Assembly (NCBI GenBank): GCA_024653775.1
Contig: JANLHZ010000028.1
Location: 1 to 36,573 of the forward strand
Length of the DNA: 36,573 bases
From: Planctomycetota bacterium
GTDB lineage: Bacteria > Planctomycetota > UBA8742 > JACQVU01 > JANLHZ01
Direction of reading: 5' to 3'
Position numbers and translations under genes: made by a program. A model generated the notes under the pieces. The model saw nothing but the letters and a program-made list of their open reading frames with translations. It did not search any database and had not been told where the DNA came from. Positions 6,854 through 27,150 of the stretch are shown here, piece by piece (the first letter of the stretch is position 1; every line of letters starts with the position of its first letter).

Positions 6854-6920
6854 GACTCTGTTCAATAGAAGTTCGTGGAACGATAACCGAAACTGCAAAT
6901 ACGTTCGATTTTCCCGTCGC

Positions 6921-7130
6921 TTCAGCGCGGAGACGCTGAGAGCGCAGAGACTCGCCGAGAACCTATAACCCGAGCGCCCCGCCGGCGATACAAAAGCAAA
7001 GCAGGCAATGGATAATCCCGTTCAGGTTTTTCGAGCTTTACTTTACGGACACAAAAATCGACGCCTGACGGTGGAATGAATTCTCTGCGTTACTCCGCGT
7101 CCTCTGCGGCTCTGCGCTGAGGATTTTAGA
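6921..7130. repeat. Inverted pair of GCGGAGACGC / CTCTGCG intergenic repeat
   Basis: The left arm (6921-6962, CGCGGAGACGCTGAGAGCGC...) and right arm (about 7079-7130, ...CTCTGCGGCTCTGCGCTGAGG) are imperfect inverted copies separated by about 115 bp. The same family recurs at 23016-23131. This repeat fills most of the 326-bp gap between the OppF-type gene and the PPC gene, where I see no gene. Confidence 0.55.
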
Positions 7131-7707: not shown

Positions 7708-8646
7708 TCAGATGCGTTCGCCTCTTCGGAGCGCGATCAGCCGGCGGATGACGGACGCGATACTTTCGCCCACGCGGACGGAGAGGAAGTCGACGCCTAT
7801 GCCGAAGCACTCGCGCGCGAGCATCTGGTTATGCTCCTCTAGCAGCGCGCGGTAGCGTTTCGCGATGCCCGCGGTATCGACGCTCAGTTTGCCGTCCGCT
7901 TCAAGCCCGGTGAAGTTAGTCAGGTCCTTGTACGGAAATTCCGTTTCTTCCTTCGTCAGAACCTGGATCAGCACGCACTCGTGGTTCTCGCGCACGGTTC
8001 GAAGGGATTTCGCGATCTTCTCCGGCTCGTCCACTGCGTCGCTGACGACTATCACGAGTCCCTTGCCCTTCATCGTTCGTGCGCTGTTCTCTGCAATTTC
8101 AAACACGCGCGTCTCGCCTTCGGGAGTCACCGCGTCGAGCGCCTGGCAGGTCTGGATGAGCTGGTTCTTGCTGCCAGAGAGCGCGGTCGCCTTCTGGACC
8201 TTCGCGCCCGCGATCACGCAGCCCGCGCTGTCGTGGGCGCCGAGGACTACGCTCATCATCCCCGCGACAAGCCCCGCGGCGTAGCGGAATTTCGAAACGC
8301 TTTTAAGCGCGTTCGCGTCAGCCTTTCGCGCGCGGAGTTCTTCCTCGCTGACTTTCGTGCTCATCTTCATCGAGCCGGACGCGTCCACGACGAACATAAC
8401 GCGCAGAGTCGTTTCCTCCTCGTATTCGCGGATGAAGAATTTGTCCGTTCGCGCGTATACCTTCCAGTCGAGCCTGCGGATGTCGTCGCCCGGAATGTAC
8501 TCTCGGTGCTCCGCGAACTCCGTGCTCGAACCCTTGTGGCGAGACTTGTGCGCGCCCGAGAGGAAGCCTTCCACGGCGTTCCGCGCCGCGATCTCGAGCC
8601 GCGAGACGCTCTGGAAAATATCAGGATCGAATGAGGTTGTGATCAT
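7708..8646 (-). CDS. DUF58 (VWA-like) protein
   Basis: The 312-residue cytosolic protein has the DUF58 hallmark EHREYIPGDDIRRLDWKVYA followed by RTDKFFIREYEEET and a von Willebrand A-like strand with the MIDAS sequence VVDASGSM. The second half carries the VIVVSDAVDEPEKI strand and DFLSVRVGES near the end. In other bacteria DUF58 proteins act with MoxR AAA+ ATPases and membrane VWA proteins in Bat-type loci. Here it is the last gene of a minus-strand block with a DUF4175-like protein. No MoxR is present. Start: the frame stays open 39 codons upstream, but that part is only the translation of a palindromic repeat (8652-8735), so ATG at 8644-8646 is used. No Shine-Dalgarno is visible. Confidence 0.92.
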   Translation of the reverse strand: MITTSFDPDIFQSVSRLEIAARNAVEGFLSGAHKSRHKGSSTEFAEHREYIPGDDIRRLDWKVYARTDKFFIREYEEETTLRVMFVVDASGSMKMSTKVSEEELRARKADANALKSVSKFRYAAGLVAGMMSVVLGAHDSAGCVIAGAKVQKATALSGSKNQLIQTCQALDAVTPEGETRVFEIAENSARTMKGKGLVIVVSDAVDEPEKIAKSLRTVRENHECVLIQVLTKEETEFPYKDLTNFTGLEADGKLSVDTAGIAKRYRALLEEHNQMLARECFGIGVDFLSVRVGESIASVIRRLIALRRGERI

Positions 8647-8651
8647 AATTT

Positions 8652-8735
8652 GTAGCACGGACGTCTCGCCCGTGGATTTTCGGGACCGCGGATGTCCTCG
8701 TCCGCATCGATTCACGGGCGAGACGCCCGTGCCAC
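8652..8735. repeat. HGRDARAT-type palindromic repeat, copy 1
   Basis: GTAGCACGGACGTCTCGCCC at the left and ACGGGCGAGACGCCCGTGCCAC at the right are inverted arms. The middle CGGATGTCCTCGTCCGC is a further small palindrome. Translated, the arms give GTGVSPV and HGRDARAT. It lies in the 146-bp gap upstream of the DUF58 start. Confidence 0.8.
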
Positions 8736-8792
8736 TTTTCATTGCAGCGCTCGCGCACTGCACTCCAAAGGGCGCATGCAGTGCGCCCCTAT

Positions 8793-11700
8793 TCAGTTTC
8801 CTCCGTTCTGCCGCGCGCGCTCTCTCTCCCGTCGCTGCTCTTCTGTCTCGTTCGAGTCTTCCTCCTGCGCGAGCTGGCGGAAATACTCTTCGGAAAGATC
8901 GCGGTAGCGCTCCGGGAAGTCGGCGTCCTGCGTCGCCTCGAAGGCGCTGTCTTGCAGTTCCCGCGGGAGCGACGCGAAAGGATTCTCTTCCTGTGGAGCT
9001 TCGGTCTGCGGCTCGTCGAAGAACCCATCCGGCAGCACTCCCTCCCTGGCTTGCGCGTCGACGTTGTCGAGGTTCTGGTTTATCTGGTCCTGAAGCTGCT
9101 GGAGCGTGCCGTTTTCCTCAAGCTGACGCTGCACCTCGTCTAGAAGTTGCCGGCGATCGCCCTGTGTCCAGCGGTCGGCCTGCATCTGCGCGAACTCCTC
9201 GAGTCGCTGCATATCCTCCTGCGTCATCTGCGAACGCCACTGCTCGTACGCCTGCTGCGCGCGCTGAATGTCCTCGGGCGAAAGCTGCTGTCCGTCGATC
9301 TTCGCGAGTTCCTCCTGAATCCTCTGCGTCATCTCCTCCGGAGTCATTTGACTCTGGTACTGCTGTTCGAACGCGCGCAGCATCGCGTCCATCTGCTCCG
9401 GCGTGAGATTCGGAATGTCCGTCGGCACGTTGTATTGCTGGAGCAGGTTCTCCTGATTCTGCATCACCTGCCGCTCAAGCGCGCTCCTGACATCGGGAGA
9501 AAGCTGACGATCGATCCGCTCCTGCAGCGAACGACGGTCGGCTTCCGACATCTGGCTATCGAACTGCTCGCGAAGCTGCGCGTACTCCTCCTGCGACATC
9601 TGCGATTCGAGTCGCTGCTGAAGCTGCGCGCGGGACTCCGGGTCGATCACCTCGCCGCGCTCGAGCCGCTCGCGGGCCTCTGCCTGCTGCTCCGGGGTCA
9701 TCTGATTCTGCAATTGCGATTCGATCTGCTGGCGCTGCTCCGCGGACATCTGATTCGCGAGCGTATCCGAAAGCTGCTGGATCTGCTCCGGAGACAGCGG
9801 CGGGTTTTCCATCAGCCGCTGGATCGCTTCCTGCTGCTCCGGGCTAAGCTGCGGACTCTGCTGCGCGTCTTGAAGCGTCTGCCGATCCTGCTGAGAAAGC
9901 TGCTGCTGCGGGTTTTGCTGCATTTCCATCAGACGCTGGAGCGCCTGCACCTGCTCGTCCGAAAGCTGCTCCGGAAGCTGCTGGCGGATAGCATCGAGCA
10001 TCTCCGGCGAAATCTGATCCGCGAGTTGCTGCTGAAGCTGCGCCTGCTGGTCCTGCGGGAGCTGGTTCTGCATCTGCTGCTCGAGCTGCTGCATTTCCTG
10101 CTGGTTGATCTGATCCTGCGGAACCTGCGACTGCTCGAGCGCGTCGACGATCTGATTCCAGTCCGCGTTCCCGATGGCGCCCGCGATCCCCGCGGCGAGG
10201 CGCGCCTTCTCTTCGTCCGAAAGCGAGTTGGCGTTCTCGAGCAGGCGGTTCATGATGTCGTTCGCCTGATCGGGGGACATCTGGTTCTGAAGCTGCTCCT
10301 GAAGCTGATCTCGCACCGTCTGATCCTGCGGCTGGTTCTGCCCGTTCGCCTCGGGATTGTTCGCCGCCTGCGGATCCTGCGCATTCCGCTGATCCTGCGC
10401 GGGCTGGTTCATCTCCATTTGACGCTGGATGAGATCCTGAATGCCACGGACGTCCTCCTGCGAAAGATTCTCGAGTCCCGTCGAAAGCGCGTCCGCGAGC
10501 GCCTGCGTCGTCTCCGGCGTGAGCTGGTTCATAAGCTGCTCCTGCAATGCGGCGCGGGTCTCGTCGCTAAGCTGCTGCGGCATTACGTCGCGAAGGCGCT
10601 GCATCGTCTCCGCATCGGTCTGATTCTGCAGACGATCGAGCAACTCGCTTTGCTGCTGCTGATCGAGGCGACCGTTCAGAGCGTCGATTGTGCGCTGGAG
10701 GTCTTCGGGGTTAATCTGGTCCTTCAGCGATTCGATTAGCGCATGCCGGTCCTGCTCGGTCAACTGGTTCCCAAGCTGATCCACGATCTGCGCGCGCTGC
10801 TCGTCGGTAAGCTGCTGGCCTACGAGGTCCTGCAGCGCCTCCTGATTCAGCCGGGGGGCGTTTTCGAGCGCCTGCGCAAGCGAATCGCGCATTGCCTGCG
10901 CCTCTTCGGGAGTAAGCTGGCTGGCGAGTTGATCGCGGATGCGCTGCGCCTCCTCCGGTGAAAGCTGCCCGGCGAGTTGGTCCCGAAGTCGCTGCGCTTC
11001 CTCCGGAGGAAGCTGATTCTGAAGCTGCTGAATAAGCTGCTCCCTTTGCTCCGGAGTCATCGCGCTGGCGAGGCGATCCGCTAGCGCCGCGCGCTCTTCC
11101 TGCGTCATCTGGTTCTGCAGGGTCTGCCGCATACGCTCGACCTCTTCCGCGGAAAGCTGGTCTGCGAGCATCTCGCGCAGGCGAACGATCTCCTCCGGAC
11201 TCGCCTGATTTCGAAGCTCCTGCCGGAGAAGGTCGCGCTGCTCGTCCGTGAGGTTGTTCCCGAGCACTTCCGCGAGGGATTGAATATCGTCCGGCGACAT
11301 CTGTCGCTCGAGCATCTGCTGGATCTCCGCTAGACGCTGAGGCGTGGTGCCCCCGTCGACCTCCTGCTGGATCGCGTCGAGTTCGTCCGGGCGAAGCTGC
11401 ATGCGAAGAAGCTCGTCGATGCTCTCCGCCGCGGTTTCCCGGCTGCGGGTGTCGATTTCGTCGATGAGGCGCTGGCGCTCTTCGCCCTGCGCACGGGAGA
11501 GGCGGTCGAGCCACGCCTCGCGCTGCTCCGGACCGAAAAACGGCCCGAGGTTTTCGATGATGCCTTCGAGTTCCTGCTGCGACTGCGCGCCTTCAAGCTG
11601 ACTGCGCAGGTTGTCGAGCAAAAGGAAATCCCGCGGGCTGAACTGCGTCGGGTCGATGTCCACCTGAGGCGGCGCGGTGTTCGTGTAACGCTCGTCCCAG

Positions 11701-11963
11701 TACTCCGGATTCGCAAGCTCCTCGAGGCCGCGGTCTATGCGCGACTCCCGTCCTGGAGCCGATTCCTCTGGTTGCGGTCCACGCGCGCGATTCCACATAT
11801 CCTCCTGCGCCTGACGAAGCCACCTTCGAAGCCTTCGAACCTGCGTCTGGAAGTCGCCTTCGCCCTGCTGCGCTTCGCCTCCCGGCGCCGCGGCGGGTTC
11901 CTCCGCGCGGATTTCCGCTGCGAAAATCGAAAGCGCGATGAGCGTGATTATCGTGTGTTTCAT
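8793..11963 (-). CDS. Periplasmic Gln-rich protein made of a 16-residue repeat, with DUF4175-associated C-terminus
   Basis: The 1056-residue protein has an N-terminal signal peptide (MKHTIITLIALSIFAAEIRA, cleavage before EE). After an N-terminal region of about 160 residues comes a long run of units of the form Q[LM]-[ST]-x-[ED]-[EQ]-x3-[LI]-x3-[LM]-x2, for example QLSPEEAQRIRDQLAS and QMTPEQREQ-type variants. I count roughly 35-40 by eye, most exactly 16 residues apart, in two blocks split by an Asn/Gln-rich spacer near 525-555. Each unit looks like a short helix capped by S/T-P-E-E. The C-terminus (FPERYRDLSEEYFRQLAQEE) resembles the ending of DUF4175-linked proteins. ACGAGGCAAA gives a ribosome site. 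The gene sits 41 bp after the coiled-coil gene and before DUF58. I infer an elongated periplasmic scaffold; function is unknown. Confidence 0.88.
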   Translation of the reverse strand: MKHTIITLIALSIFAAEIRAEEPAAAPGGEAQQGEGDFQTQVRRLRRWLRQAQEDMWNRARGPQPEESAPGRESRIDRGLEELANPEYWDERYTNTAPPQVDIDPTQFSPRDFLLLDNLRSQLEGAQSQQELEGIIENLGPFFGPEQREAWLDRLSRAQGEERQRLIDEIDTRSRETAAESIDELLRMQLRPDELDAIQQEVDGGTTPQRLAEIQQMLERQMSPDDIQSLAEVLGNNLTDEQRDLLRQELRNQASPEEIVRLREMLADQLSAEEVERMRQTLQNQMTQEERAALADRLASAMTPEQREQLIQQLQNQLPPEEAQRLRDQLAGQLSPEEAQRIRDQLASQLTPEEAQAMRDSLAQALENAPRLNQEALQDLVGQQLTDEQRAQIVDQLGNQLTEQDRHALIESLKDQINPEDLQRTIDALNGRLDQQQQSELLDRLQNQTDAETMQRLRDVMPQQLSDETRAALQEQLMNQLTPETTQALADALSTGLENLSQEDVRGIQDLIQRQMEMNQPAQDQRNAQDPQAANNPEANGQNQPQDQTVRDQLQEQLQNQMSPDQANDIMNRLLENANSLSDEEKARLAAGIAGAIGNADWNQIVDALEQSQVPQDQINQQEMQQLEQQMQNQLPQDQQAQLQQQLADQISPEMLDAIRQQLPEQLSDEQVQALQRLMEMQQNPQQQLSQQDRQTLQDAQQSPQLSPEQQEAIQRLMENPPLSPEQIQQLSDTLANQMSAEQRQQIESQLQNQMTPEQQAEARERLERGEVIDPESRAQLQQRLESQMSQEEYAQLREQFDSQMSEADRRSLQERIDRQLSPDVRSALERQVMQNQENLLQQYNVPTDIPNLTPEQMDAMLRAFEQQYQSQMTPEEMTQRIQEELAKIDGQQLSPEDIQRAQQAYEQWRSQMTQEDMQRLEEFAQMQADRWTQGDRRQLLDEVQRQLEENGTLQQLQDQINQNLDNVDAQAREGVLPDGFFDEPQTEAPQEENPFASLPRELQDSAFEATQDADFPERYRDLSEEYFRQLAQEEDSNETEEQRRERERARQNGGN

Positions 11964-12004: not shown

Positions 12005-13750
12005 TCATTCCTCTTCCTGCATTCTCGTCGCCAGAACTTCGTTTAGCGTATCTATGATTATCTGCTCCTCCTCGCGGAGCGTGAGCAGCACGTCGTCCAT
12101 GTGCACGATAACCGGAGCGTTCGGATTAGTCGACGCCATTTCTTCGCGGAGTTTGTCCATCCCGCCTTTGTGTTCCCGGAACCCGCTTCGCCAGTGAAGC
12201 ACCATCGAAAGCTCTATCCACGGCGGGACGAAGCCGGAGTCGATTCCCCACGTGTATTCGAGATAGAACCACGAGCCGGGGAAGTTCACGTATGCGTCCG
12301 GAGATTCCCGCACCGCTATCAGGGTATACTCGCACTCGCGCTTCCAGCGGCTGAACCCGTGGATTGCCGCGTCGAGCTTGTTCGCGGCGCTTTCGACCAG
12401 CAGCAGCGCGACGATCTTCTGCGACGAGAACGAATAGCGGAACGCCTGACGGAGATCATCCTGCGAAAGATCTAGCAGGGTCTTCAGAACCTTGCCCGCG
12501 CTATCGCCGCGCGCGAGAAGGTAATCCATAATCTCGCCCGCGATGTCGTAGAGCAGCACCGCGTCCTGACCCTGCGCCTCCATGAAAGCGACCAGCCGCG
12601 AGAGCCAGTCCGCGAAGATGGCGAGGGACGTCTCGATCCATTCACGCGCCGCGGTGAGACGAACCGTGATAAGCTGCTCGCCCGCGTTCCCGGCGCGGCC
12701 CTGAATCGTATCCCGCGTGCTCTGCAGGCTGTCCCAGGTATTTATGACGCCCTCTTCATTCACGGTGCGCACGCTCTCCGCGAAGGACTCGCTCATCTGC
12801 GTGAGACGCTGGTTCTCCTCCGCGTTTTCGTACTGACGGACGAATGGCATTATCTCCCCGAGCTGGCTCTGATCCTCCGCAAGCTCCCCCCGAAGCTGAT
12901 TCTGGTACTGCTGTCCGTTCTGAGTGAAGTTCTGCGAGACGCGGTTCGAAAGCGCCTGCATATACTCGTCCCGTCGCTGCTGGAGCGTTTCGAAACTCTG
13001 CCTCGCTGCGTCCTGATTTCCAGACGCCATCGACTCCGCCATCTGACGGTACGCCTCCGCGACGCGCTGCGCCTCGTTCGTGCCCGAGTTCTCGTAAAGC
13101 GGCGCGAGTCTCTCCGCCGCCTCCTGGTATCGCTGCATCTGCCGCTCGCTTAGGGACTCCGGACTCTGGAGGTCGCTCTGCAAGCGATCCATGAAGTTCC
13201 TGTCCTGACGAAGCAGGCTAAGGGCATCCTGCGAGGTCTGGTCGGAGGCTTCCTGAAGCATCTCGTCCAGCTTTCCGATCCGCGCGTCCAGATTGCTTTC
13301 GATGTGCCGTAGCTCCCGATACCACTCCGAAGGCAGTTCCGCGGGCGCAGGCACCGGAGGCGTGCCCTCCAGAATCTCCGTTAGTTCCGAGAGCGCGGAT
13401 TCGATTCGATCATGCTGCTCGCGCACCTCGAAGAGCTTCTCCTGGCGCAGCGATTCGCTCGCGGTTTCGATCATCTCCGCAAGCGGCGTCCTCCGGAGAA
13501 GCGAAAGCGCAGCGCTGATCCGGCCCTCCTGCTCGAGCCGATTTTCGGATTCGGACTCGCGGAGTTCCGCCTGCACTTCGTGAAGCCTCCGCATTATGTC
13601 GCCCACTTCCTCCGCGAGCTGATCGTGCCTCGAACGAAGGCGCTCGATCTGAGTCTCGCGGGTGTCCTCTGCAAAGACGATCGCCGGGAATAGCGCAAGA
13701 AGAAGCGCGGCGAACATCCACGAATTTCCCCGAACGGCTTTCGGGCGCAC
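12005..13750 (-). CDS. Periplasmic coiled-coil protein of the DUF4175-like locus
   Basis: The 581-residue protein has a signal peptide (n-region MRPKAVRGNSW, hydrophobic FAALLLALFPAIVFA, cleavage before EDTRE). Nearly the entire mature chain is predicted helical: a heptad-rich segment about 30-190 (IERLRSRHDQLAEEVGDIMR), then Gln/Glu-rich helices, then a more globular last 170 residues with aromatic patches (FPGSWFYLEYTWGIDSG). No family is recognised. Its position between the DUF4175-like protein and the 16-residue-repeat protein suggests a partner of both in the periplasm. The start is GTG at 13748-13750 with AGGG upstream; an ATG at 13717 would remove the positively charged n-region and is less likely. 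The gap to the upstream gene is filled with a heptamer repeat. Confidence 0.85.
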   Translation of the reverse strand: MRPKAVRGNSWMFAALLLALFPAIVFAEDTRETQIERLRSRHDQLAEEVGDIMRRLHEVQAELRESESENRLEQEGRISAALSLLRRTPLAEMIETASESLRQEKLFEVREQHDRIESALSELTEILEGTPPVPAPAELPSEWYRELRHIESNLDARIGKLDEMLQEASDQTSQDALSLLRQDRNFMDRLQSDLQSPESLSERQMQRYQEAAERLAPLYENSGTNEAQRVAEAYRQMAESMASGNQDAARQSFETLQQRRDEYMQALSNRVSQNFTQNGQQYQNQLRGELAEDQSQLGEIMPFVRQYENAEENQRLTQMSESFAESVRTVNEEGVINTWDSLQSTRDTIQGRAGNAGEQLITVRLTAAREWIETSLAIFADWLSRLVAFMEAQGQDAVLLYDIAGEIMDYLLARGDSAGKVLKTLLDLSQDDLRQAFRYSFSSQKIVALLLVESAANKLDAAIHGFSRWKRECEYTLIAVRESPDAYVNFPGSWFYLEYTWGIDSGFVPPWIELSMVLHWRSGFREHKGGMDKLREEMASTNPNAPVIVHMDDVLLTLREEEQIIIDTLNEVLATRMQEEE

Positions 13751-13802: not shown

Positions 13803-16418
13803 TCAGTCCCCTCCCGAAAGCGATTCTCCCTGAAGTTCTTCCTCGAGCAGCCTCTGCAGATCGTCGCTGATGGAATCCTGAAGCGTCCGGAGCCTCCTCG
13901 CGCGTCCGCGGAGGAGTTCGTAACTCTCGAACGCCTGAAGCTGGGCCTGCATTGCGCGAAACACGGTTTCGATCTTCTTCGTAAGCTTTTGCGCGTGTTC
14001 GAGAGTCCTGAAGAATCCCGTGCCCTGAGTTTCCGCCGGGTGAAGATACCACTCCTTGAAGAGCGAAAGCGTCACGTTCGAAAGCCCGACCTGCTCGACG
14101 CCCGCACGCCAGATCACTTCGCGAAGAACGTCCGTCGGCAGTTCCCGCGGGTCGACCAGCCTCTCTGGAACGAACAGTCTCCGCCAGTCCTTTTTCGCCA
14201 CAAGATTTATGAATCTGTTCACGACCCCGTCCGAAAGCGCGTTCTGTCGATCTTCCTCCTCCCTGCCAGTGTAATCCTTCGCGGGAATCAGGATTCTTCG
14301 CGCCTCGGCTTCGAGGTCCGCCGCTTCCCGCGTGTCGCCTCGGAAGAGAAGGGTCCGCGCGAGCACGTTCAGCGCGATAAGGCTCTTTTCGTGGGACGGG
14401 CCGAGAATCGATCCTTCGCTGCGGTTTACGACCATCGAACGGTAAACGCGATCCGTGCGGTCCTCGAAGGTTCCGAGCAGACGGTTCAGCGCCTCCTGCT
14501 CACGCACAAGCGCAAGGAGAACGTCCCTCGTCGGCGTGACCCGCGCGGACTCGTCGGAGAACGAATCGAGCGTCTTCTCGATCTCCGCGAGCGCCGCCTT
14601 CGCGCGGCGAAGCGAGTCCCGCGCTTCGAGGACGATCTCGCGGTGCCTGCGTTCAAGCTCGACGTTCGAAACCACCATTATCTGGAGCGCTTCGCTTTCC
14701 CCAAACCTCATCTCCGCGGGAGGATGGGAATCCGTCGCGCGCAGAACGAGCACGCTCGATGCGAGTCCTTCGAAGTCGGCAAGGAAGTGCGATTCGAACG
14801 ACTCTGAACGGTGCTCGTAATCCTGGAGCGGAAGCACCCGGCTGATTTCGCCTGCTTCCGCGTCAGTCAGATACGCGAAGGCCCCGGTAACGAGAATATC
14901 GTCGCTGGCGATGGCTGTGAGCGGAAGTCTTGGAACCGTCAGCGCGAGCACGTTCGACGTCCCGCCAGCGAGCGGAAGCAGCGAAGTCGTCAGGCTGACT
15001 TCCGGTGGACGGTCCGGATACGCGGAGACGTTCAGCCGAAGCGGCGGCGACACGCTGATCCCGGTGGTCGCGGTGAACGCGATCTTCAGGTTTCCTTCCG
15101 CGCGGACGTCCGTCAGCGCAACTTCGAAAACGAACTCGCTTTCCCTTTGCAGCGTTACTCCCTCGAATTTCGAGCCGTCGCGGTGCCTCAGTTCCGCGGA
15201 CAGCCGCGAGCCGAGTTTCTGGTCGGAGGTGATTTTTATCGTGGTGACGCCGCCAGGCACGAACGCGGCCTCGGAGCCGTGTCCTTCGAACTCGCGCGTC
15301 GCGACTTTCCATGATTCCGGAAACGCGACGGTGGTTTCGACCTTGCGCACCCTCGGCGCGCTAACGAGGCGGATGTCGAACCATTCGCTGAACGCGTCGA
15401 GCGCGCGGACGCGGAGTTTCGAAACCCCGCTTGCTGGCGGAAGGGTCCACGAGAATCTGAGGCCATCGTCCGCGCGGGGTTCGCGGAGCATCCGAACGGA
15501 GGTCACGCCTTCTATCGCGGTGTCGAATTCGACGAACGCGTCTTCGGGCATGACCTCGCTTTCATCTGGAACGAACGCCTCGAAAGTGAGCGCGGAATCG
15601 CTTGCGAGGACGATGCTGCGCTTCTCTGCGTCGATGCTCGCGTTCGCGGGACTTCCGTCTGGAAGAGCATCGCGCGCGCGCGCGATGAGCGTCACCCGCG
15701 TCGGCCACGCTACGTCGGAAACGAGCCGCTGGAAAAAGACCGAGGTGGTCTCGTCGTCGAACGCTGCGAAAGTCGTGATCGTGAAAATCAGCGTAATTGC
15801 AAAAGGAAGCAAGGCGAGTCCGACGGCTTTCCGGTTGACGAAACTTCGAGCGGAGTCTTTTTCGAGGGCGGAATCGACCTTCGACAGAACTTCCGAGAGC
15901 GCGCACTTCCTGCGGTCCGCGAACGCGGTTGTCGAAAGCGCGGCCTTGAGCGTTTCCGGCATCGTGGCACGGGCATCTTGCCCGTGAATGCTCGTTTGCT
16001 CGTGAACGTCCACGGGCGGGACGCCCGTGCCACCCGCAAGATCGTGCAGCACGTAGAGGTGCGATTTCAGCTCCGGCCTGCGGGTCGCGAGCCACGAAAG
16101 GGCCTGGCTTTTGACAAAAACCCGCGCGATTTCGCGGTAGACGAACAGATAGAAAACGTACCCGAGTCCTCCGAGCGCTGAGAGAAAGACCGTCACGCGC
16201 ATCGAAAACGGAAGTTGCTCGCCCCAGAATCTGTAGCTGAAAACGTCGGCGTAGAATCCGAACAGAAACGCGCCATAAAGAACCGCGAGAAAGATCGCGA
16301 TTCCCCGCGCGATAAGGATGCCGCGGACCAATTTGTGAAGCGACGAAACCCGCGACTCGATCCGGGCGAGACCCTGATTGCTTTTGAAGTCGAATTCGTT
16401 ATTTTTGATTTCAACCAC
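13803..16418 (-). CDS. DUF4175-like membrane protein
   Basis: The 871-residue protein has three N-terminal membrane helices (about 33-57, 72-97 and 199-220) and a large domain outside the membrane with beta-rich segments (about 240-560) followed by helices (about 600-871). The plan of paired N-terminal helices, a third helix after a soluble loop, a long periplasmic part and a helical C-terminus matches DUF4175-type proteins, which occur with DUF58 genes. Residues about 129-152 (GTGVPPV...HGQDARAT) are the in-frame translation of a palindromic repeat in the loop between helices 2 and 3. The start is GTG at 16416-16418 without a clear ribosome site. It is the second gene after the propeller gene in the minus-strand block; I infer that it anchors the complex in the inner membrane. 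Confidence 0.82.
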   Translation of the reverse strand: MVEIKNNEFDFKSNQGLARIESRVSSLHKLVRGILIARGIAIFLAVLYGAFLFGFYADVFSYRFWGEQLPFSMRVTVFLSALGGLGYVFYLFVYREIARVFVKSQALSWLATRRPELKSHLYVLHDLAGGTGVPPVDVHEQTSIHGQDARATMPETLKAALSTTAFADRRKCALSEVLSKVDSALEKDSARSFVNRKAVGLALLPFAITLIFTITTFAAFDDETTSVFFQRLVSDVAWPTRVTLIARARDALPDGSPANASIDAEKRSIVLASDSALTFEAFVPDESEVMPEDAFVEFDTAIEGVTSVRMLREPRADDGLRFSWTLPPASGVSKLRVRALDAFSEWFDIRLVSAPRVRKVETTVAFPESWKVATREFEGHGSEAAFVPGGVTTIKITSDQKLGSRLSAELRHRDGSKFEGVTLQRESEFVFEVALTDVRAEGNLKIAFTATTGISVSPPLRLNVSAYPDRPPEVSLTTSLLPLAGGTSNVLALTVPRLPLTAIASDDILVTGAFAYLTDAEAGEISRVLPLQDYEHRSESFESHFLADFEGLASSVLVLRATDSHPPAEMRFGESEALQIMVVSNVELERRHREIVLEARDSLRRAKAALAEIEKTLDSFSDESARVTPTRDVLLALVREQEALNRLLGTFEDRTDRVYRSMVVNRSEGSILGPSHEKSLIALNVLARTLLFRGDTREAADLEAEARRILIPAKDYTGREEEDRQNALSDGVVNRFINLVAKKDWRRLFVPERLVDPRELPTDVLREVIWRAGVEQVGLSNVTLSLFKEWYLHPAETQGTGFFRTLEHAQKLTKKIETVFRAMQAQLQAFESYELLRGRARRLRTLQDSISDDLQRLLEEELQGESLSGGD
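15964..16033. repeat. HGRDARAT-type palindromic repeat inside a coding sequence
   Basis: GTGGCACGGGCATCTTGCCC opens and CGGGACGCCCGTGCCAC closes an inverted repeat of about 70 bp, the same family as at 8652, 24694 and 32384. Here it lies entirely within the DUF4175-like gene and keeps the frame, adding about 24 residues to the loop between membrane helices 2 and 3. Confidence 0.85.
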
Positions 16419-16462: not shown

Positions 16463-16497
16463 CAATTCTCAACTCTTAATTCTTAATTCTTAACTAT
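16463..16497. repeat. Heptamer tandem array (TAATTCT type)
   Basis: Five 7-bp units (CAATTCT, CAACTCT, TAATTCT, TAATTCT, TAACTAT) run directly into the stop codon of the propeller gene (16494-16496). Confidence 0.7.
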
Positions 16498-18794
16498 TCC
16501 GCGCTTTCCGCGCTGTAAATCGTCGTGCGCTTGTCGTTAGTCAAAACGAGCCGGAGATTCCCGTCCTGGGTGAACCAGCTCACGTCGCCGCCATAGACGT
16601 TGCGATTCAAGAAATTCCTTCGCGGCTCGATTTCCCAGGTGTAGATCACCTCGAAGGACGACGCCTCGATGAGGTAGAGCCTCTCGTCGCTGCACATGCT
16701 GATAAGGCCGTCCTTATAGCAGCCCCTGTAGGTCGGATGCTGGCTGAGTGGTTCCGAAACCCGCGTTATCTGTCCGTTTGCGAGGCTCACCGCCGCGACG
16801 CGAGCGTCTCCGCGCTGATAGAAGACCTCGGTGTCGCTGAACCCGAGGACGAACCGTCCGCGGCTTGCGTCGTGACTCTGCCAGCGGAGCGCGCCCGACT
16901 CCGGCTCGATGCACCAGCAGCGATCCGAGTCCATCGGAGTGACGATCAGCGCGCCGCCCGCGAAATTGACTGTGCCGTCGAACCATCCAAGTCCGCGGCT
17001 GGTTTCGAGTCGTCTCCTCGCGAGGCTTTCGAGGAAACTGTACCGCTCGCCGCGACCTCTGCCGATGCTTCCATACTTGATCGACCATACGAGGCTGCCG
17101 TCGCGTATGTCGATGGACGCGACTATGCCGCGGTTCGTGCAGAGCACCGCGAGATTGTCGAGGATCAGAATCGGCGAAGCCTCGGTAATAGTGTCGCCCG
17201 CGGAAACAAGGTTCATGGGGTTGTCGCTAGAAAGCTGGAACGTTGTCCCGACGCGGGTCCTCCACCTCGGGAGGCCTGTGTTCTTGTCGAAAGAAACCAT
17301 CCAGAACTCGAGATCCTTCGCGAGCGGGATCGTGACTCCAGTGATGATCTGGTCGCCCACGATCGCGGGCTGAGACGCGAACTGCACCTGATGGTAGAAC
17401 GCGCGCTCGGTTTCGCCGAACGCGTCGACCGCGCCCGGCTCCGGCTTGTCCGCGGGCACGCGCCAGACGACTTCCCCGGTCTGGCGGTTCCACTTGACGA
17501 GGTCGGTTCCGCGGAACTGATTCGACATCCTGCCGCGGGGATACGCGACGGTGTACACGGATTCGCCCTCCATCGTCTCGCGCAGATTCCGCACGGGCGT
17601 CGGCGCGAGGAACTCGTCCGACGAGAAACGAAACGAGAACGCATTGCCCTGCATCTCGCCGAACTGACCGCCCTGCACCTCCTCGATGCGTTCCGAAATC
17701 TGCTGGCTTGCTTCGATGGCGCCGGTCATCAGGTTCACCCTGCGGAAGTCCCGCGCGCCCGCCTGATAAATCCAGCCGTCCCCGAAAACCGGCGTGACGC
17801 GGGAATTCAGCACGTCCGGCGAAGGCTCGCTTCCGAAAAGCCTTCGCAGCGGATCGAGAATGTTTCCGAGGTTCCCGCCGTATGCGAACAGCGCGGTGTT
17901 GTCGATGCTCGCGATCGCGCTTACGGGGATTCCAGGCTTCGAAATCGACTCGATCCGGCTGGTTCCGGAATCGAACGGGGCGATTTGAAGCGCGCCGATC
18001 ACGTCCGCGAGGGAAGTCGGGATTCCATCGAACTCGATCCGCATGCCGACGTTTTCGTTCACGAGCGCATTCGCCTCGTGAGCGCGACCTATGCTTTTAA
18101 GGCTCATGATCTTCGCGACGAAAACGTCCGGATACTTCGTTTTCCAGTCCGGGACGTAGCGCTCGATCGTCAGAATCGCCATCAGCGCCGCGAACGGCTC
18201 GTTCTCCTCGAAACACAGACGCGCCTCGAGAACCGCCGCGTCTATCGCGGAAGGCGAAGGCGCGAATTCCTTTCGAATCTGTGCGAGACTCCGGATGACG
18301 CTCTCCCGATCCGATTCGGTCTGAAGGGTCGTCATCTGGGCGCGGAGTCGCATTCTCGCGGTCATCTCGAACCTTTCGAGCGCGGCTCTTTTTACCTCCA
18401 GCGGGAACTTCCCGAAGACGTCCGCGATGACTGTGCGCTGCTTGATGTACCGCGCGTAAATGTTCGGCGCGCGGTTATGCGATGCGTCCGGAAGCAGATG
18501 CCCGCTGAACCTCTCCGCCATTTCGTACAGACCATTCGCGGCGTCGCCGAACTCTCCCCTTTCGAGCGCGTCGTTAACGCGGCTTACAAGGGTGCGGTAT
18601 GCGTCGCGATCGAAATCCGGCTCCGCGAGAATGCACGTCGGATTTATGTCCGCGGGTTCATCGGGCAGCCTCAGTGCTGAATCCTCCGCCCGTGAAGTCG
18701 CGGGAAGCGCGAGCACCAACGTGGCGATCCCAAACGCGACGATCCCAAACGCGACGATCCTTGTGCTCCTGATAGATTTCGCTGGGCGTCTCAT
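16494..18794 (-). CDS. PQQ-type beta-propeller periplasmic protein
   Basis: The 766-residue protein has a signal peptide (MRRPAKSIRSTR then a hydrophobic stretch, cleavage near ATSRA/EDS). A helical N-terminal half (about 35-250) is followed by propeller blades of the PQQ-like type: NRQTGEVVWRVPA, FDKNTGLPRWRTRVG, SIDIRDGSLVWSIKYG and IEPESGALRWQSHD each carry the (S/T)G...W blade ending. BamB and many planctomycete scaffold proteins have the same fold, so the sequence does not show enzymatic PQQ use. The hydrophobic part is lengthened by a 15-bp tandem duplication (18729-18758). ATG at 18794 is preferred over an in-frame TTG at 18800. It is the first gene after RNase E/G (93-bp gap) and precedes the DUF4175-like gene; a binding or scaffold role in that system is inferred. 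Confidence 0.88.
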   Translation of the reverse strand: MRRPAKSIRSTRIVAFGIVAFGIATLVLALPATSRAEDSALRLPDEPADINPTCILAEPDFDRDAYRTLVSRVNDALERGEFGDAANGLYEMAERFSGHLLPDASHNRAPNIYARYIKQRTVIADVFGKFPLEVKRAALERFEMTARMRLRAQMTTLQTESDRESVIRSLAQIRKEFAPSPSAIDAAVLEARLCFEENEPFAALMAILTIERYVPDWKTKYPDVFVAKIMSLKSIGRAHEANALVNENVGMRIEFDGIPTSLADVIGALQIAPFDSGTSRIESISKPGIPVSAIASIDNTALFAYGGNLGNILDPLRRLFGSEPSPDVLNSRVTPVFGDGWIYQAGARDFRRVNLMTGAIEASQQISERIEEVQGGQFGEMQGNAFSFRFSSDEFLAPTPVRNLRETMEGESVYTVAYPRGRMSNQFRGTDLVKWNRQTGEVVWRVPADKPEPGAVDAFGETERAFYHQVQFASQPAIVGDQIITGVTIPLAKDLEFWMVSFDKNTGLPRWRTRVGTTFQLSSDNPMNLVSAGDTITEASPILILDNLAVLCTNRGIVASIDIRDGSLVWSIKYGSIGRGRGERYSFLESLARRRLETSRGLGWFDGTVNFAGGALIVTPMDSDRCWCIEPESGALRWQSHDASRGRFVLGFSDTEVFYQRGDARVAAVSLANGQITRVSEPLSQHPTYRGCYKDGLISMCSDERLYLIEASSFEVIYTWEIEPRRNFLNRNVYGGDVSWFTQDGNLRLVLTNDKRTTIYSAESAE
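18729..18758. repeat. 15-bp tandem duplication in a signal-peptide coding region
   Basis: CCCAAACGCGACGAT occurs twice in a row (and partly a third time). On the coding strand it encodes IVAFG IVAFG IAT, extending the hydrophobic core of the propeller protein's signal peptide by five residues per unit. Confidence 0.85.
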
Positions 18795-18887
18795 CGGCAA
18801 TCACGCTAACAATTATCTATAGTTAAATCAACAAAGCCGGTCTCGTCTATACTTCTACTGACAAGATCGGGTTTTGTTTGATTATTG

Positions 18888-21800
18888 TTACTGAGGTCTT
18901 CCTCCTCCGCCGCGTCCGCCGCGCTGGCTGCGCTGGCCGCCGCGTCTTCCTCGTCCGCCGCGTCCGCCGCGATTTCCGCCTCGTCTTGCGCGGGACTCTT
19001 CGCCCTCGCCGCCAACGGAATCGTCACCTTCATCGTCGTCGTCGTACGAGGGCGATCTGGAGCTATGGCCGTCCGCGTCGTCGTAATAATCGACCGACCG
19101 GCTTTTCTCATACGCGTTCGATTCGTCCCCTTCGCTTCCCGCGGGTTCGCGGTCGTAATCGGTGTCCTTCCCGCGGCTTCCGCGTTTGTAGACGAACTTT
19201 AGCGTGCTGTCTTCGCTTTCGGTGCGCGAAAGCTGAAGCGTGATCTTCTTGTCGTACTGCTGCTCGAGCTGGTTCAGCTCCTTTCGCTTTTCGTTCACGA
19301 GGTAGTAGAACAGCCTCGAAGGCGAGTACACGATCAGTTCCGACACTTCCGGACGCAGCAGTCCGGCGCTCATTCTGCGGAACAGGTTCAGCTTGTCCGT
19401 GTCGAGGCTGCGGACCCTGCCCGTGCCATAGCAGGCGTGGCAGCGCTCGTGGGTGATCTTCGTGACGCCTTCGCGGACCCTCTGCCTCGTGATTTCGATG
19501 ATCCCGAACGGGGACAGCCGCGTCATCTTGAACCGCGCGCGTCCGTTCGAAAGCTCCCGCTTGAGCGCGCTTTCGACGGTGCGTTTGTTCCGCGGGTCGC
19601 GCATGTCGATGAAGTCGATCAGCACGAGCCCGCCTATGTCGCGGATTCTGATCTGCCGGCTGATCTCCGGAATCGCTTCCAGATTGACGTTCATCGCAAG
19701 GTTCTCCGGATCCTGGTCGGCCATGTACTTGCCGCTGTTGACGTCGATCGCGACGAGGGCTTCCGTCTGGTCGATCACGATGCTCGCGCCGCTTCGAAGC
19801 ACGATGCGTCGGGACTCGAAGGAGTCGATCTGATCCTCGATACGAAACGCGTGAAACAGCGGAATGTCGTTCGACCAAAGCGCGAGCTTGTCCACGAACT
19901 CTGGCGCGAGTCTTTGCAGGAACTCCCACACCCGATCGTAGACCTGCGCGTCGTCGACGATGACGTCCTGGATGCTCGAATCGAAAAGATCGCGGATAGT
20001 GCGGATCACAAGGTCGCTTTCGCGGTACACCGTCGAAGGCGAGTTGCCCCTGCCCGTGCGGTCCATTATGGCGTCCCAAAGCTTCAGCAGGTAGTCGAGA
20101 TCCCTTCTGATTTCCTCTTCGGTACGCTCCGAGCCCGCGGTGCGTACGATGAATCCCATCTTTCCGGGCGGGGTGATGTTGTCGAGAATCTTCTTCAGGT
20201 GCCTGCGGTCCTTGTCGTCCTCGATCTTCTTCGAGACGCCCTTGCGCGAAAGCCCGGGCATAAGGACGAGATACCGTCCCGGAAGCGAAATGTACGTCGA
20301 AAGGGTCGGTCCTTTCTTGCCGATTTCGTCCTTGGTGATCTGTACGAGGACTTCGTCGCCTTTCGAGAGCATCTTTTCGATCCTTCGCTCCGCGCGGAAG
20401 TTTCCTTCGTAGTTGTGGGTCGTCACTTTCATCACGTCCTTGCACTCCTCGTACGAGGGCATGAGGTCGCTTACGTGAAGGAAGCCGTTCTTACCTGTGC
20501 CGATGTCGACGAAGGCCGCCTGTATCGGAGCCTCGACGTTCACCACCCGGCCTTTGATAATGTTGTGGAGGTTGTCGGTGCGCTCCTGACGTTCGACGTA
20601 GTACTCCTGCACCGTTCCCGCCTCGAGGATCGCGACGCGGCTTTCCTCTTCCTGCGCACAGTTGATCAGCATTATGCGTTTCGCGCCGACGTCGTTCGTA
20701 AAGCGAATCTGCCTGCGCTGGTACGGTTTCAGCGCCTGCGGCTTTCTGCGGTCGCCTCCCGCGGACGGCGCTCCGGAGTCGATTTCGCGGAAGAGCGCGA
20801 TTTCCTCGCTACGTTCCCGCGCCTCGCTTTCGATCGACTCTCTGCGAGCCGTCAGTTCCTTGACGACGTTTTCGTGATCGGGGAAATTCGGGCTCGAATC
20901 GACCTTCGGCGCGTCGAGCAGCACCATTTCCCGCTGGGTGCGACCTCGATCGCGACGATCGCGACCTCTGCGCCCGCCTCTGTGATCGTTCTCGGAGCGA
21001 TCGTCGTCGTGGGATCGCCTTTCCCTGCCTCTTCGTTCCTTCCCCTCCGGCGCGCCGGACGGAGCGCCTTCGTGAAGTCTTTTGCCTCGTCCTTCTTCGT
21101 CTGTATGCGACTCTGGCGCCTCGGGGACTTCCTCCCTGATCTTCGCCACGGGAGCCTCCAGCCTCGTATGGGCGTCGGACCTGAATTGAGGTTGCGCGCT
21201 ACGGTTCGGAGTATCGAGCTGTCCGCGCATCTTCACCGGAATCCTTCTCCCGCGCTTTTTGGGAGATTCGTCCGAAGGTTCGACCTCGCCTCTAGAGACT
21301 TCCCGATGAACTTCGGGAACTTCGTTTTTCCGCAAATCCAGTGGTGGCCGGCCTTGGAGAGACGCGTGGGAAGATGCCTGAACAGCGGGTCTCTCTTCCT
21401 GCGCGGGCCTCACCGGCTCTTCACGACGGTGAGCGCTTCTCGCGGGAATGCTCTTCGCGGGGAGATCCTCGTCCGGAACCACCGCGGGACGTTTGTTTTT
21501 CGGGAGCGCCCAGTAAGGCACCGGCCCGGTTCTCGGCTTGTCGTCCGCGCTGACCTTCATTTCGAAGAACGAGTCCTTCGCCTTCTCGTAAACGTTCTCT
21601 GACGGATTTTCGAGTGCCGCGGGTCCGGTCGCGGGCTTTTTGAGTTTCGCCTCCTCGGCCTTCACCTTGTTTTCCCGCGCTCTAACCCAGGGCGCGACGT
21701 CCGAAGCGTTCGGCTCGCCGCCGTTCCCGTTTTCTGTCGACTGGTGCTCCCTAAGATTTGTCGTATCCGTGTCCACTCTTTTCTCGCTTTCTTTTTGCGT

Positions 21801-22103
21801 CTTGGTCTGCTGCGCGCCGGATTTTCTTGCGGGTCCCGAAATCTTCGGGGCGGCCGCTTTCCGGGTGGGACGCTTCGCGGGGACCTTGGTGATCCCGGTC
21901 TCCTCGGACGCGCTACGAATGGAAGGTCTTCCGCGCTTTTTCGGCCCGTCCGACTTTGCGGAACTTTGGCCTTCCGATTTTTTCGGTCTTCCCGCTTTTT
22001 TCGGACCCTCGCCAACGCCAGTCGCGTTATGTTGTTTCGCGTCCTGCTCTGAAGCTACGCTTTCAGACTTCGACTTTGTCCTTGAATCTGATTTCTTGTC
22101 CAC
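18888..22103 (-). CDS. rne: Rne/Rng family ribonuclease with long disordered N-terminal extension
   Basis: The 1071-residue protein has, in order: a disordered charged region (1 to about 450), an S1 RNA-binding domain (KGRVVNVEAPIQAAFVDIG, about 510-590), and the RNase E/G catalytic core with the metal-binding aspartates in VAIDVNSGKY (about 785) and LVLIDFIDM (about 830). These are followed by the Zn-link CHACYGTGRVRS (about 888) and an RGG-rich tail at the C-terminus. The family cleaves single-stranded RNA for rRNA and mRNA processing. E. coli RNase E has its scaffold at the C-terminus; here the long arm is N-terminal and carries two KRGRP-like motifs (37-40, 57-60). The start is GTG at 22101-22103, supported by AGAGGA four bases upstream. 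It overlaps the end of the DUF2344 gene by 41 bp, implying coupled translation. Confidence 0.95.
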   Translation of the reverse strand: MDKKSDSRTKSKSESVASEQDAKQHNATGVGEGPKKAGRPKKSEGQSSAKSDGPKKRGRPSIRSASEETGITKVPAKRPTRKAAAPKISGPARKSGAQQTKTQKESEKRVDTDTTNLREHQSTENGNGGEPNASDVAPWVRARENKVKAEEAKLKKPATGPAALENPSENVYEKAKDSFFEMKVSADDKPRTGPVPYWALPKNKRPAVVPDEDLPAKSIPARSAHRREEPVRPAQEERPAVQASSHASLQGRPPLDLRKNEVPEVHREVSRGEVEPSDESPKKRGRRIPVKMRGQLDTPNRSAQPQFRSDAHTRLEAPVAKIREEVPEAPESHTDEEGRGKRLHEGAPSGAPEGKERRGRERRSHDDDRSENDHRGGRRGRDRRDRGRTQREMVLLDAPKVDSSPNFPDHENVVKELTARRESIESEARERSEEIALFREIDSGAPSAGGDRRKPQALKPYQRRQIRFTNDVGAKRIMLINCAQEEESRVAILEAGTVQEYYVERQERTDNLHNIIKGRVVNVEAPIQAAFVDIGTGKNGFLHVSDLMPSYEECKDVMKVTTHNYEGNFRAERRIEKMLSKGDEVLVQITKDEIGKKGPTLSTYISLPGRYLVLMPGLSRKGVSKKIEDDKDRRHLKKILDNITPPGKMGFIVRTAGSERTEEEIRRDLDYLLKLWDAIMDRTGRGNSPSTVYRESDLVIRTIRDLFDSSIQDVIVDDAQVYDRVWEFLQRLAPEFVDKLALWSNDIPLFHAFRIEDQIDSFESRRIVLRSGASIVIDQTEALVAIDVNSGKYMADQDPENLAMNVNLEAIPEISRQIRIRDIGGLVLIDFIDMRDPRNKRTVESALKRELSNGRARFKMTRLSPFGIIEITRQRVREGVTKITHERCHACYGTGRVRSLDTDKLNLFRRMSAGLLRPEVSELIVYSPSRLFYYLVNEKRKELNQLEQQYDKKITLQLSRTESEDSTLKFVYKRGSRGKDTDYDREPAGSEGDESNAYEKSRSVDYYDDADGHSSRSPSYDDDDEGDDSVGGEGEESRARRGGNRGGRGGRGRRGGQRSQRGGRGGGGRPQ

Positions 22104-22834: not shown

Positions 22835-23015
22835 AAAACTAAAAATATTACCTGTTAAGGCTACTCCCGCGTTTACTCGCGGGATATTTGAACCAGACGA
22901 CGATTCTACAAATTGACGACCGGCTATACAAGAGTTCTTTTCGATTTGCATGTTTTCAGATATTAGTTCGGTTAACCATATATGGTGCAATTATAAAACC
23001 GGCATTCTCGCGGTT

Positions 23016-23131
23016 CTTCACCGCGGAGGCGCGGAGAACGCAGAGACTCGCAGAGAATTTTTGAATCTTTCCCACCCGAAAAACAACAACTCTCCGCGAA
23101 GCTCCGCGCCCTCTGCGCCATCGCGCTTAAG
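23016..23131. repeat. GCGGAG / CTCCGC intergenic inverted repeat
   Basis: The arm CACCGCGGAGGCGCGGAGAACG...CTCGCAGAGAA (about 23020-23056) and the opposing arm TCTCCGCGAAGCTCCGCGCCCTCTGCGCC (about 23091-23119) form an imperfect inverted repeat. It belongs to the family at 6921-7130. It lies in the 389-bp gap 22813-23201, which holds no recognisable gene. Confidence 0.6.
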
Positions 23132-24693: not shown

Positions 24694-24743
24694 GTGGCAC
24701 GGGCATCTTGCCCGTGTTTTCACGGACGAGACGTCCGTGCCAC
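24694..24743. repeat. HGRDARAT-type palindromic repeat, copy 3
   Basis: GTGGCACGGGCATCTTGCCC and GGACGAGACGTCCGTGCCAC are inverted arms of a 50-bp palindrome in the divergent gap between the lipoprotein gene and the YchF-like gene. Confidence 0.85.
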
Positions 24744-26967: not shown

Positions 26968-27115
26968 ACCGCGCGGTGCTAGGAGTGCGACTGTGAGCGC
27001 AACGAGCTGTCGCGATGTAGCGCTGGCCTCCCGGCGGCAAGCGAGACGTGCCAGGCGCTTCCGGTTCGTAGTGACGCCGTAAGGCGTTCAGATGCCCTCA
27101 CGGGCACACTACTAA
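26968..27115 (-). repeat. Dispersed ~145-bp double-hairpin repeat, copy 2 (inverted)
   Basis: The reverse complement of this segment matches 272-415 almost throughout, including CCTTACGGCGTCACTACGAA and GGCACGTCTCGCTTGCCGCC. Stem-loops ACGCC-GTAA-GGCGT and TGCCC-TCAC-GGGCA are intact. It starts directly after the stop of the ABC-2 ATPase gene. Confidence 0.8.
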
Positions 27116-27150
27116 CATCCCGTGTGCGTCTATCCTGCCCGTGAGCGGCT

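Follow-up and report, generated by a model that had tools for sequence, protein, structure and literature searches.

In Spy/CpxP proteins (LTXXQ, PF07813), two motifs lie in a small cradle. Bacterial ice-nucleation proteins carry tandem arrays of 16-residue repeats in dozens of copies (PMC9418140). MoxR ATPases pair with VWA proteins as remodelling chaperones, with NorQ/NorD, RavA/ViaA and CbbQ/CbbO as described cases (PMC9976466). A search of the open literature retrieved no study of planctomycete clusters with DUF4175-like proteins or of their client or structure, and no papers on DUF3106, HeliScrew or DUF4175 in planctomycetes. Here, we analyze a 36,573-nucleotide (nt) stretch of DNA (the window) from a Planctomycetota bacterium, in which one gene encodes 39 tandem 16-residue units, as opposed to the two motifs of Spy/CpxP, followed by a tail that is also found in proteins of DUF4175-type clusters.

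The repeat gene (8793..11963, minus strand) is an open reading frame (ORF) of 1056 codons with an ATG start. The protein begins with MKHTIITLIALSIFAAEIRA-EEP, which resembles a signal peptide when judged by eye (residues 1-20; 11904..11963, minus strand), and we infer that it is secreted. A non-repeat N-terminal region (residues 21-185; 11409..11903, minus strand) contains no units. Autocorrelation with BLOSUM62 and 200 shuffles revealed a 16-residue period (z = 11.1 at lag 16 and 9.3 at lag 32; z ≤ 5.1 at all other lags). With an iterated 16-column score matrix, 39 non-overlapping units were detected in residues 190-1038, compared with a mean of 0.8 and a maximum of 3 in 50 shuffled controls. 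The steps between units were exactly 16 residues in 25 of 38 cases. A sequence-only reading of this DNA had proposed about 35 to 40 copies of a 16-residue repeat, mostly at exact 16-residue steps, and a 16-residue period in a self-alignment had been set beforehand as the test; all of this was borne out.

Autocorrelation and the score matrix delimit a first array block of 19 units (residues 190-519; 10407..11396, minus strand), in which eleven units follow one another at exact 16-residue steps without a break (residues 190-365). An Asn/Gln-rich spacer (about residues 518-545; 10329..10412, minus strand), with a gap of 46 between units, precedes a less regular second block of 19 units with several spacers (residues 546-928; 9180..10328, minus strand). 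Overall, the second half of the array is more degenerate than the first. The single Asn/Gln-rich spacer described earlier proved to be merely the most obvious of several irregular stretches, located at about residues 366-384, 517-545, 597-618, 683-705, 837-852 and 929-1022. Apart from residues 21-185, the last 50 or so residues are also devoid of units. A long antisense ORF (9147-10739, plus strand) was attributed to the composition of the repeat.

The unit can be written as [LM][ST]PE[EQ]xxxLxxxLxxQ, with L/M at position 1, S/T at 2, P at 3, E at 4, Q/E at 5, L/I at 9, L at 13 and Q at 16. In terms of helix caps, position 2 is the N-cap, positions 2 and 5 form the capping box, and position 1 is the outer half of the hydrophobic staple. 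This grammar suggests that each 16-residue unit starts a helix and continues it for about three and a half turns. Consistently, AlphaFold2 modelled ten units as ten helices of 14 residues each. Most of these helices occupy unit positions 3-16, with two residues between them, which fits a cap at position 2. We therefore regard one helix per unit as predicted by the model. The confidence was low for the ten units (pLDDT 54, pTM 0.24) and for the full-length protein (pLDDT 41.6, pTM 0.24), likely because of the shallow alignment, and a Foldseek search of the PDB with the low-confidence model returned nothing below E 2.4. Thus, of the regular helical rod or solenoid suggested from sequence alone, the regular 14-residue helices stood, but a reliable overall fold was not obtained. 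The broader description of dozens of LTxxQ-like helical units, each of 16 residues, in a secreted protein remains valid with the signal peptide assigned by eye. The mature chain contains no Cys and one His, and it is strongly acidic (net charge about -110, pI 4.2). This composition speaks against a role in metal binding or catalysis.

At the DNA level, the array is old. The units within the protein are on average alike at 27% of residues and 47% of bases, and third codon positions are identical between units at 40.5%, compared with 37.2% expected from composition. The near-random third positions indicate that the pattern was kept by selection on the protein and does not stem from recent duplication. 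A tandem DNA repeat is still visible only at 10884-11015 (about three units, period 48 bp, 78%). This stretch would fit an array that arose by recent tandem duplication or as an assembly artefact, but we consider such an origin highly improbable. For most of the array it is rejected by the divergence of the units and by a homologue in a second, independent genome. This genome belongs to the same order but to another family, and the homologue excludes an assembly artefact.

This homologue is encoded in G001 (record JACQVU010000214.1, Planctomycetota isolate NC_groundwater_1471_Ag_S-0.65um_69_23; exact match). It has 28 units in 712 residues, the protein being cut by the contig edge, and its register in the score matrix is even cleaner. 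When 392 genomes of the phylum were searched with a four-unit profile, strong matches were obtained only in the host genome and in G001, and no comparable array was present in the other 390. Ten of these genomes gave weak matches. The four clearest (L022, L023, L025 and L027) are short proteins of the DUF3106 type, in which the step is 18 residues, and the remaining ones did not include a comparable array. Scanning 84,980 species genomes with a seed-based method yielded, beyond G001, only one DUF3106 protein, from Nitrospinota; in the contig scans, a first round gave no match and a second round found these two. The unit alignment is too variable for the seed method, which relies on exact peptide matches and would not detect diverged arrays, so that absence outside the phylum is weakly tested. 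A phage or plasmid origin was dismissed, as no relatives were detected among viral contigs or plasmids.

The repeat protein ends in a tail of about 37 residues, LPRELQDSAFEATQDADFPERYRDLSEEYFRQLA (8862..8969, minus strand), which is homologous to the C-terminal ends of proteins in DUF4175-type clusters and conforms to the motif LPxxLRxxxxxAxxxxxPxxYxxxxxEYyxxLA. A tail HMM built from five other loci only scored 20.8 bits with the repeat protein (1.9e-8 for one sequence) and 15.7 bits with the G001 protein. Among 2000 shuffled control proteins, the best domain of the top-ranked ones reached 8.4 bits. In a search of its own genome, the tail of the repeat protein was recovered with E 8.3e-5. Tails were present in 105 of 199 genomes of the phylum, and the tail was C-terminal in all 28 matches for which its position was determined. 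Nearby DUF4175-like, DUF58, MoxR, VWA or squalene-cyclase-like genes were seen at 17 of 20 sampled tail loci. The sequence-only reading missed this tail, which links the repeat protein to a phylum-wide gene cluster, and also missed that other lineages have a different repeat ahead of the tail.

The same genome also carries a fused paralogue, in which a DUF4175-like part and the tail form one chain of 1074 residues (contig C42; L018:4036-7260). A PF03364 (polyketide-cyclase-like family) gene is located on the same contig. In G042, the DUF4175-like parts and the tail are distributed over three genes (800, 637 and 347 aa) with the tail on the last, a split that parallels the genes of the window (871, 581 and 1056 aa).

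In the window, a PQQ/BamB-like beta-propeller protein (16494..18800; PF13360, 1.5e-12), an 871-aa DUF4175-like membrane protein (13803..16418), a 581-aa secreted coiled-coil-like protein (12005..13750), the repeat protein and a DUF58 (VWA-type) protein (7708..8646; PF01882, 3.1e-34) are encoded in this order on the minus strand. The first three gaps are 75, 52 and 41 bp. The DUF58 gene likely starts at 8646 and not at 8763, and if so it lies about 146 bp beyond the repeat gene. We infer that the repeat gene forms an apparent operon with the DUF4175-like and DUF58 genes. The 871-aa protein has a hydrophobic N-terminus, then an extracytoplasmic part, and lacks the tail; the 581-aa ORF matched no Pfam family above the cut-off. 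The earlier assignment of a DUF4175-like neighbour agrees with this gene arrangement, but PF13779 (DUF4175) itself matched neither the 871-aa protein nor anything else in the genome. A homologue of this neighbour in another planctomycete, G058, reaches the 27.3-bit cut-off of PF13779. MoxR is not adjacent in the window, and nine copies above the cut-off are located elsewhere in the genome.

Linkage of the array to the cluster is seen in both families. After the repeat gene, the same strand of G001 encodes a squalene-cyclase-like secreted protein, a MoxR AAA+ ATPase (PF07726, 9e-57), DUF58 and BatA/VWA. A PQQ propeller protein and a DUF4175-like protein are encoded at the end of another contig. 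The gene order is therefore likely the same as in the window, with the DUF4175-like adjacency deduced across two contigs.

Several other elements were noted. Beyond the propeller gene, an RNase E/G family protein (18888-22103, minus strand) has an N-terminal extension of about 480 residues ahead of its S1 and catalytic parts. An interspersed palindrome, TGGCACGGGCATCTTGCCCGTG, is located at 8713-8734, 15965-16032 and 24695-24716, as part of an element translating as HGQDARAT. It has 384 sites in the genome (≤3 mismatches), compared with 8 for the reversed control; one pair is in frame within the DUF4175-like gene, and one copy immediately precedes the likely start of the DUF58 gene. A second interspersed element, CGCGGAGACGCTGAGAGCGCAGAGACTCGC, was detected at 6908-6961 and 23004-23057 (81% alike), and a dispersed repeat of about 150 bp in inverted orientation at 262-415 and 26969-27123 (86-93% alike).

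The segment preceding the tail differs in kind and length between lineages. In the repeat protein and its G001 homologue, this place is occupied by the 16-residue helical units. In L070 and L072, which are tail proteins of other planctomycetes, Gln/Ala heptads (34-35% Gln) extend over several hundred residues, and in L074 to L077 the segment is poly-Gln. In L088, which is fused to a DUF4175-like protein, Gln/Ala is followed by collagen-like APGEAG repeats. This swapping is the strongest argument that the length and general character of the segment matter more than its exact sequence, and the 16-residue repeat probably represents the form that a changeable spacer arm has taken in this lineage. 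As a counterpoint, the strict spacing in the first block calls for packing, or at the least for regularity, in the structure.

Based on these data, we put at about even the chance that the repeat protein is a secreted component of a MoxR-DUF58-BatA/VWA-DUF4175 cluster, with the tail docking and the array serving as an acidic extracytoplasmic spacer or scaffold arm. The cluster would build or drive an envelope complex, the membrane part of which may be the DUF4175-like protein, and the tail proteins would provide its extracytoplasmic arm. We hypothesize that the tail is the docking element, likely to the membrane-anchored DUF4175-like partner or to another cluster member, and that the variable segment before it spans or scaffolds. 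The repeat protein would be one lineage's form of this arm: each unit would fold into a single short helix with a cap, and the whole array would be a long acidic extracytoplasmic spacer or scaffold, replacing the Gln-rich low-complexity segment of other lineages.

A somewhat unlikely alternative is that the array folds into an alpha-solenoid whose surface binds a partner (an unfolded envelope protein, a polysaccharide or a cluster protein), as an extended analogue of a Spy/CpxP-type chaperone. The LTxxQ-like capping-box grammar, the strict spacing of 16 in the first block, the hydrophobic positions 1, 9 and 13, as packing needs, the retention of the protein pattern despite diverged DNA and the single modelled helix per unit all favor such a fold. 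Against it stand the missing PF07813 match, the lack of a confident tertiary model or Foldseek fold match, the strong acidity of the array and its irregular second half. The near-exact spacing over 11 units, in turn, speaks against the spacer reading, as it represents more order than a mere spacer needs. The low-confidence models, the absence of MoxR next to the repeat gene in the window, the position of the G001 DUF4175-like gene on another contig and the fact that only the tail is common to the short tail proteins and the repeat protein also count against that reading. We consider it unlikely, but worth stating, that the units form an undescribed solenoid or screw with one helix per 16 residues, tens of nm long, as the length-setting extracytoplasmic arm of an envelope machine driven by MoxR AAA+ and VWA proteins in Planctomycetota. 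Conversely, the array could be a weakly constrained helical linker of low complexity, rich in Gln/Glu and merely filling the segment before the tail. The unrelated low-complexity repeats in the same place in other lineages, the different lengths of the homologues (1056 vs. 712 residues or more) and the degenerate second half point in this direction. However, L/M-S/T-P-E and the Leu positions were kept over 39 and 28 units in two families while third positions became near random, and we judge such a linker quite unlikely.

The tail offers a sequence handle on the extracytoplasmic partner of DUF4175-type clusters in roughly half the genomes sampled. It also reveals the swapping of quite different repeats in the segment before it. 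The array itself is a natural, simple and long helical repeat whose fold has no recognized family match, making it a useful test for structure prediction.

Both the type of cluster and the LTxxQ-like grammar of the helix are already known. No description was found in open papers of a 16-residue array at this position, nor of a common tail with swapped repeat segments. With Spy/CpxP, the unit has in common the LTxxQ-like helix start. The sequence-only reading had noted this resemblance, but family membership was rejected: PF07813 was not listed for the repeat protein at E ≤ 10 (the filters drop most matches above 0.1), nor did it appear in the families displayed for ten blocks of 64 residues. 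Similarly to the repeat protein, DUF3106 (PF11304) proteins are secreted and have contiguous [LM][SP]PE[EQ]xxxL units. However, they are basic, with an 18-residue period, about three to seven units, another gene context and no tail seen. Three from planctomycetes (L022, L025 and L027) represent an apparent analogue of the 16-residue array. Membership of the repeat protein in this family was rejected because the PF11304 profile gave 21.6 bits, below the 24.3 cut-off, and autocorrelation showed no peak at lag 18. The best PDB sequence match of the unit profile was HeliScrew4 (PDB 9zem, 1.2e-6), for which no publication was found in the open literature; it also has short LTPEQ-type units in tandem, but they are of about 8 residues in a 120-residue protein. 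Models of ice-nucleation repeats show a beta-solenoid that bears arrays of Thr/Tyr, whereas the units here are predicted to be helical and are rich in Pro, Glu, Gln and Leu; a repeat of that type was ruled out by composition and predicted helix. The tail proteins (unnamed; e.g., G042, 347 aa, and G058, 1210 aa) also carry the homologous tail of about 37 residues, are extracytoplasmic and have the same neighborhood of DUF4175-like, DUF58, MoxR and VWA genes. They differ in having poly-Gln, Q/A heptads, collagen-like repeats or a coiled coil before the tail, and no 16-residue unit. The short ones have a 44-residue N-terminal motif, which is absent from the repeat protein (no score above shuffles), so that these proteins and the repeat protein have only the tail in common.
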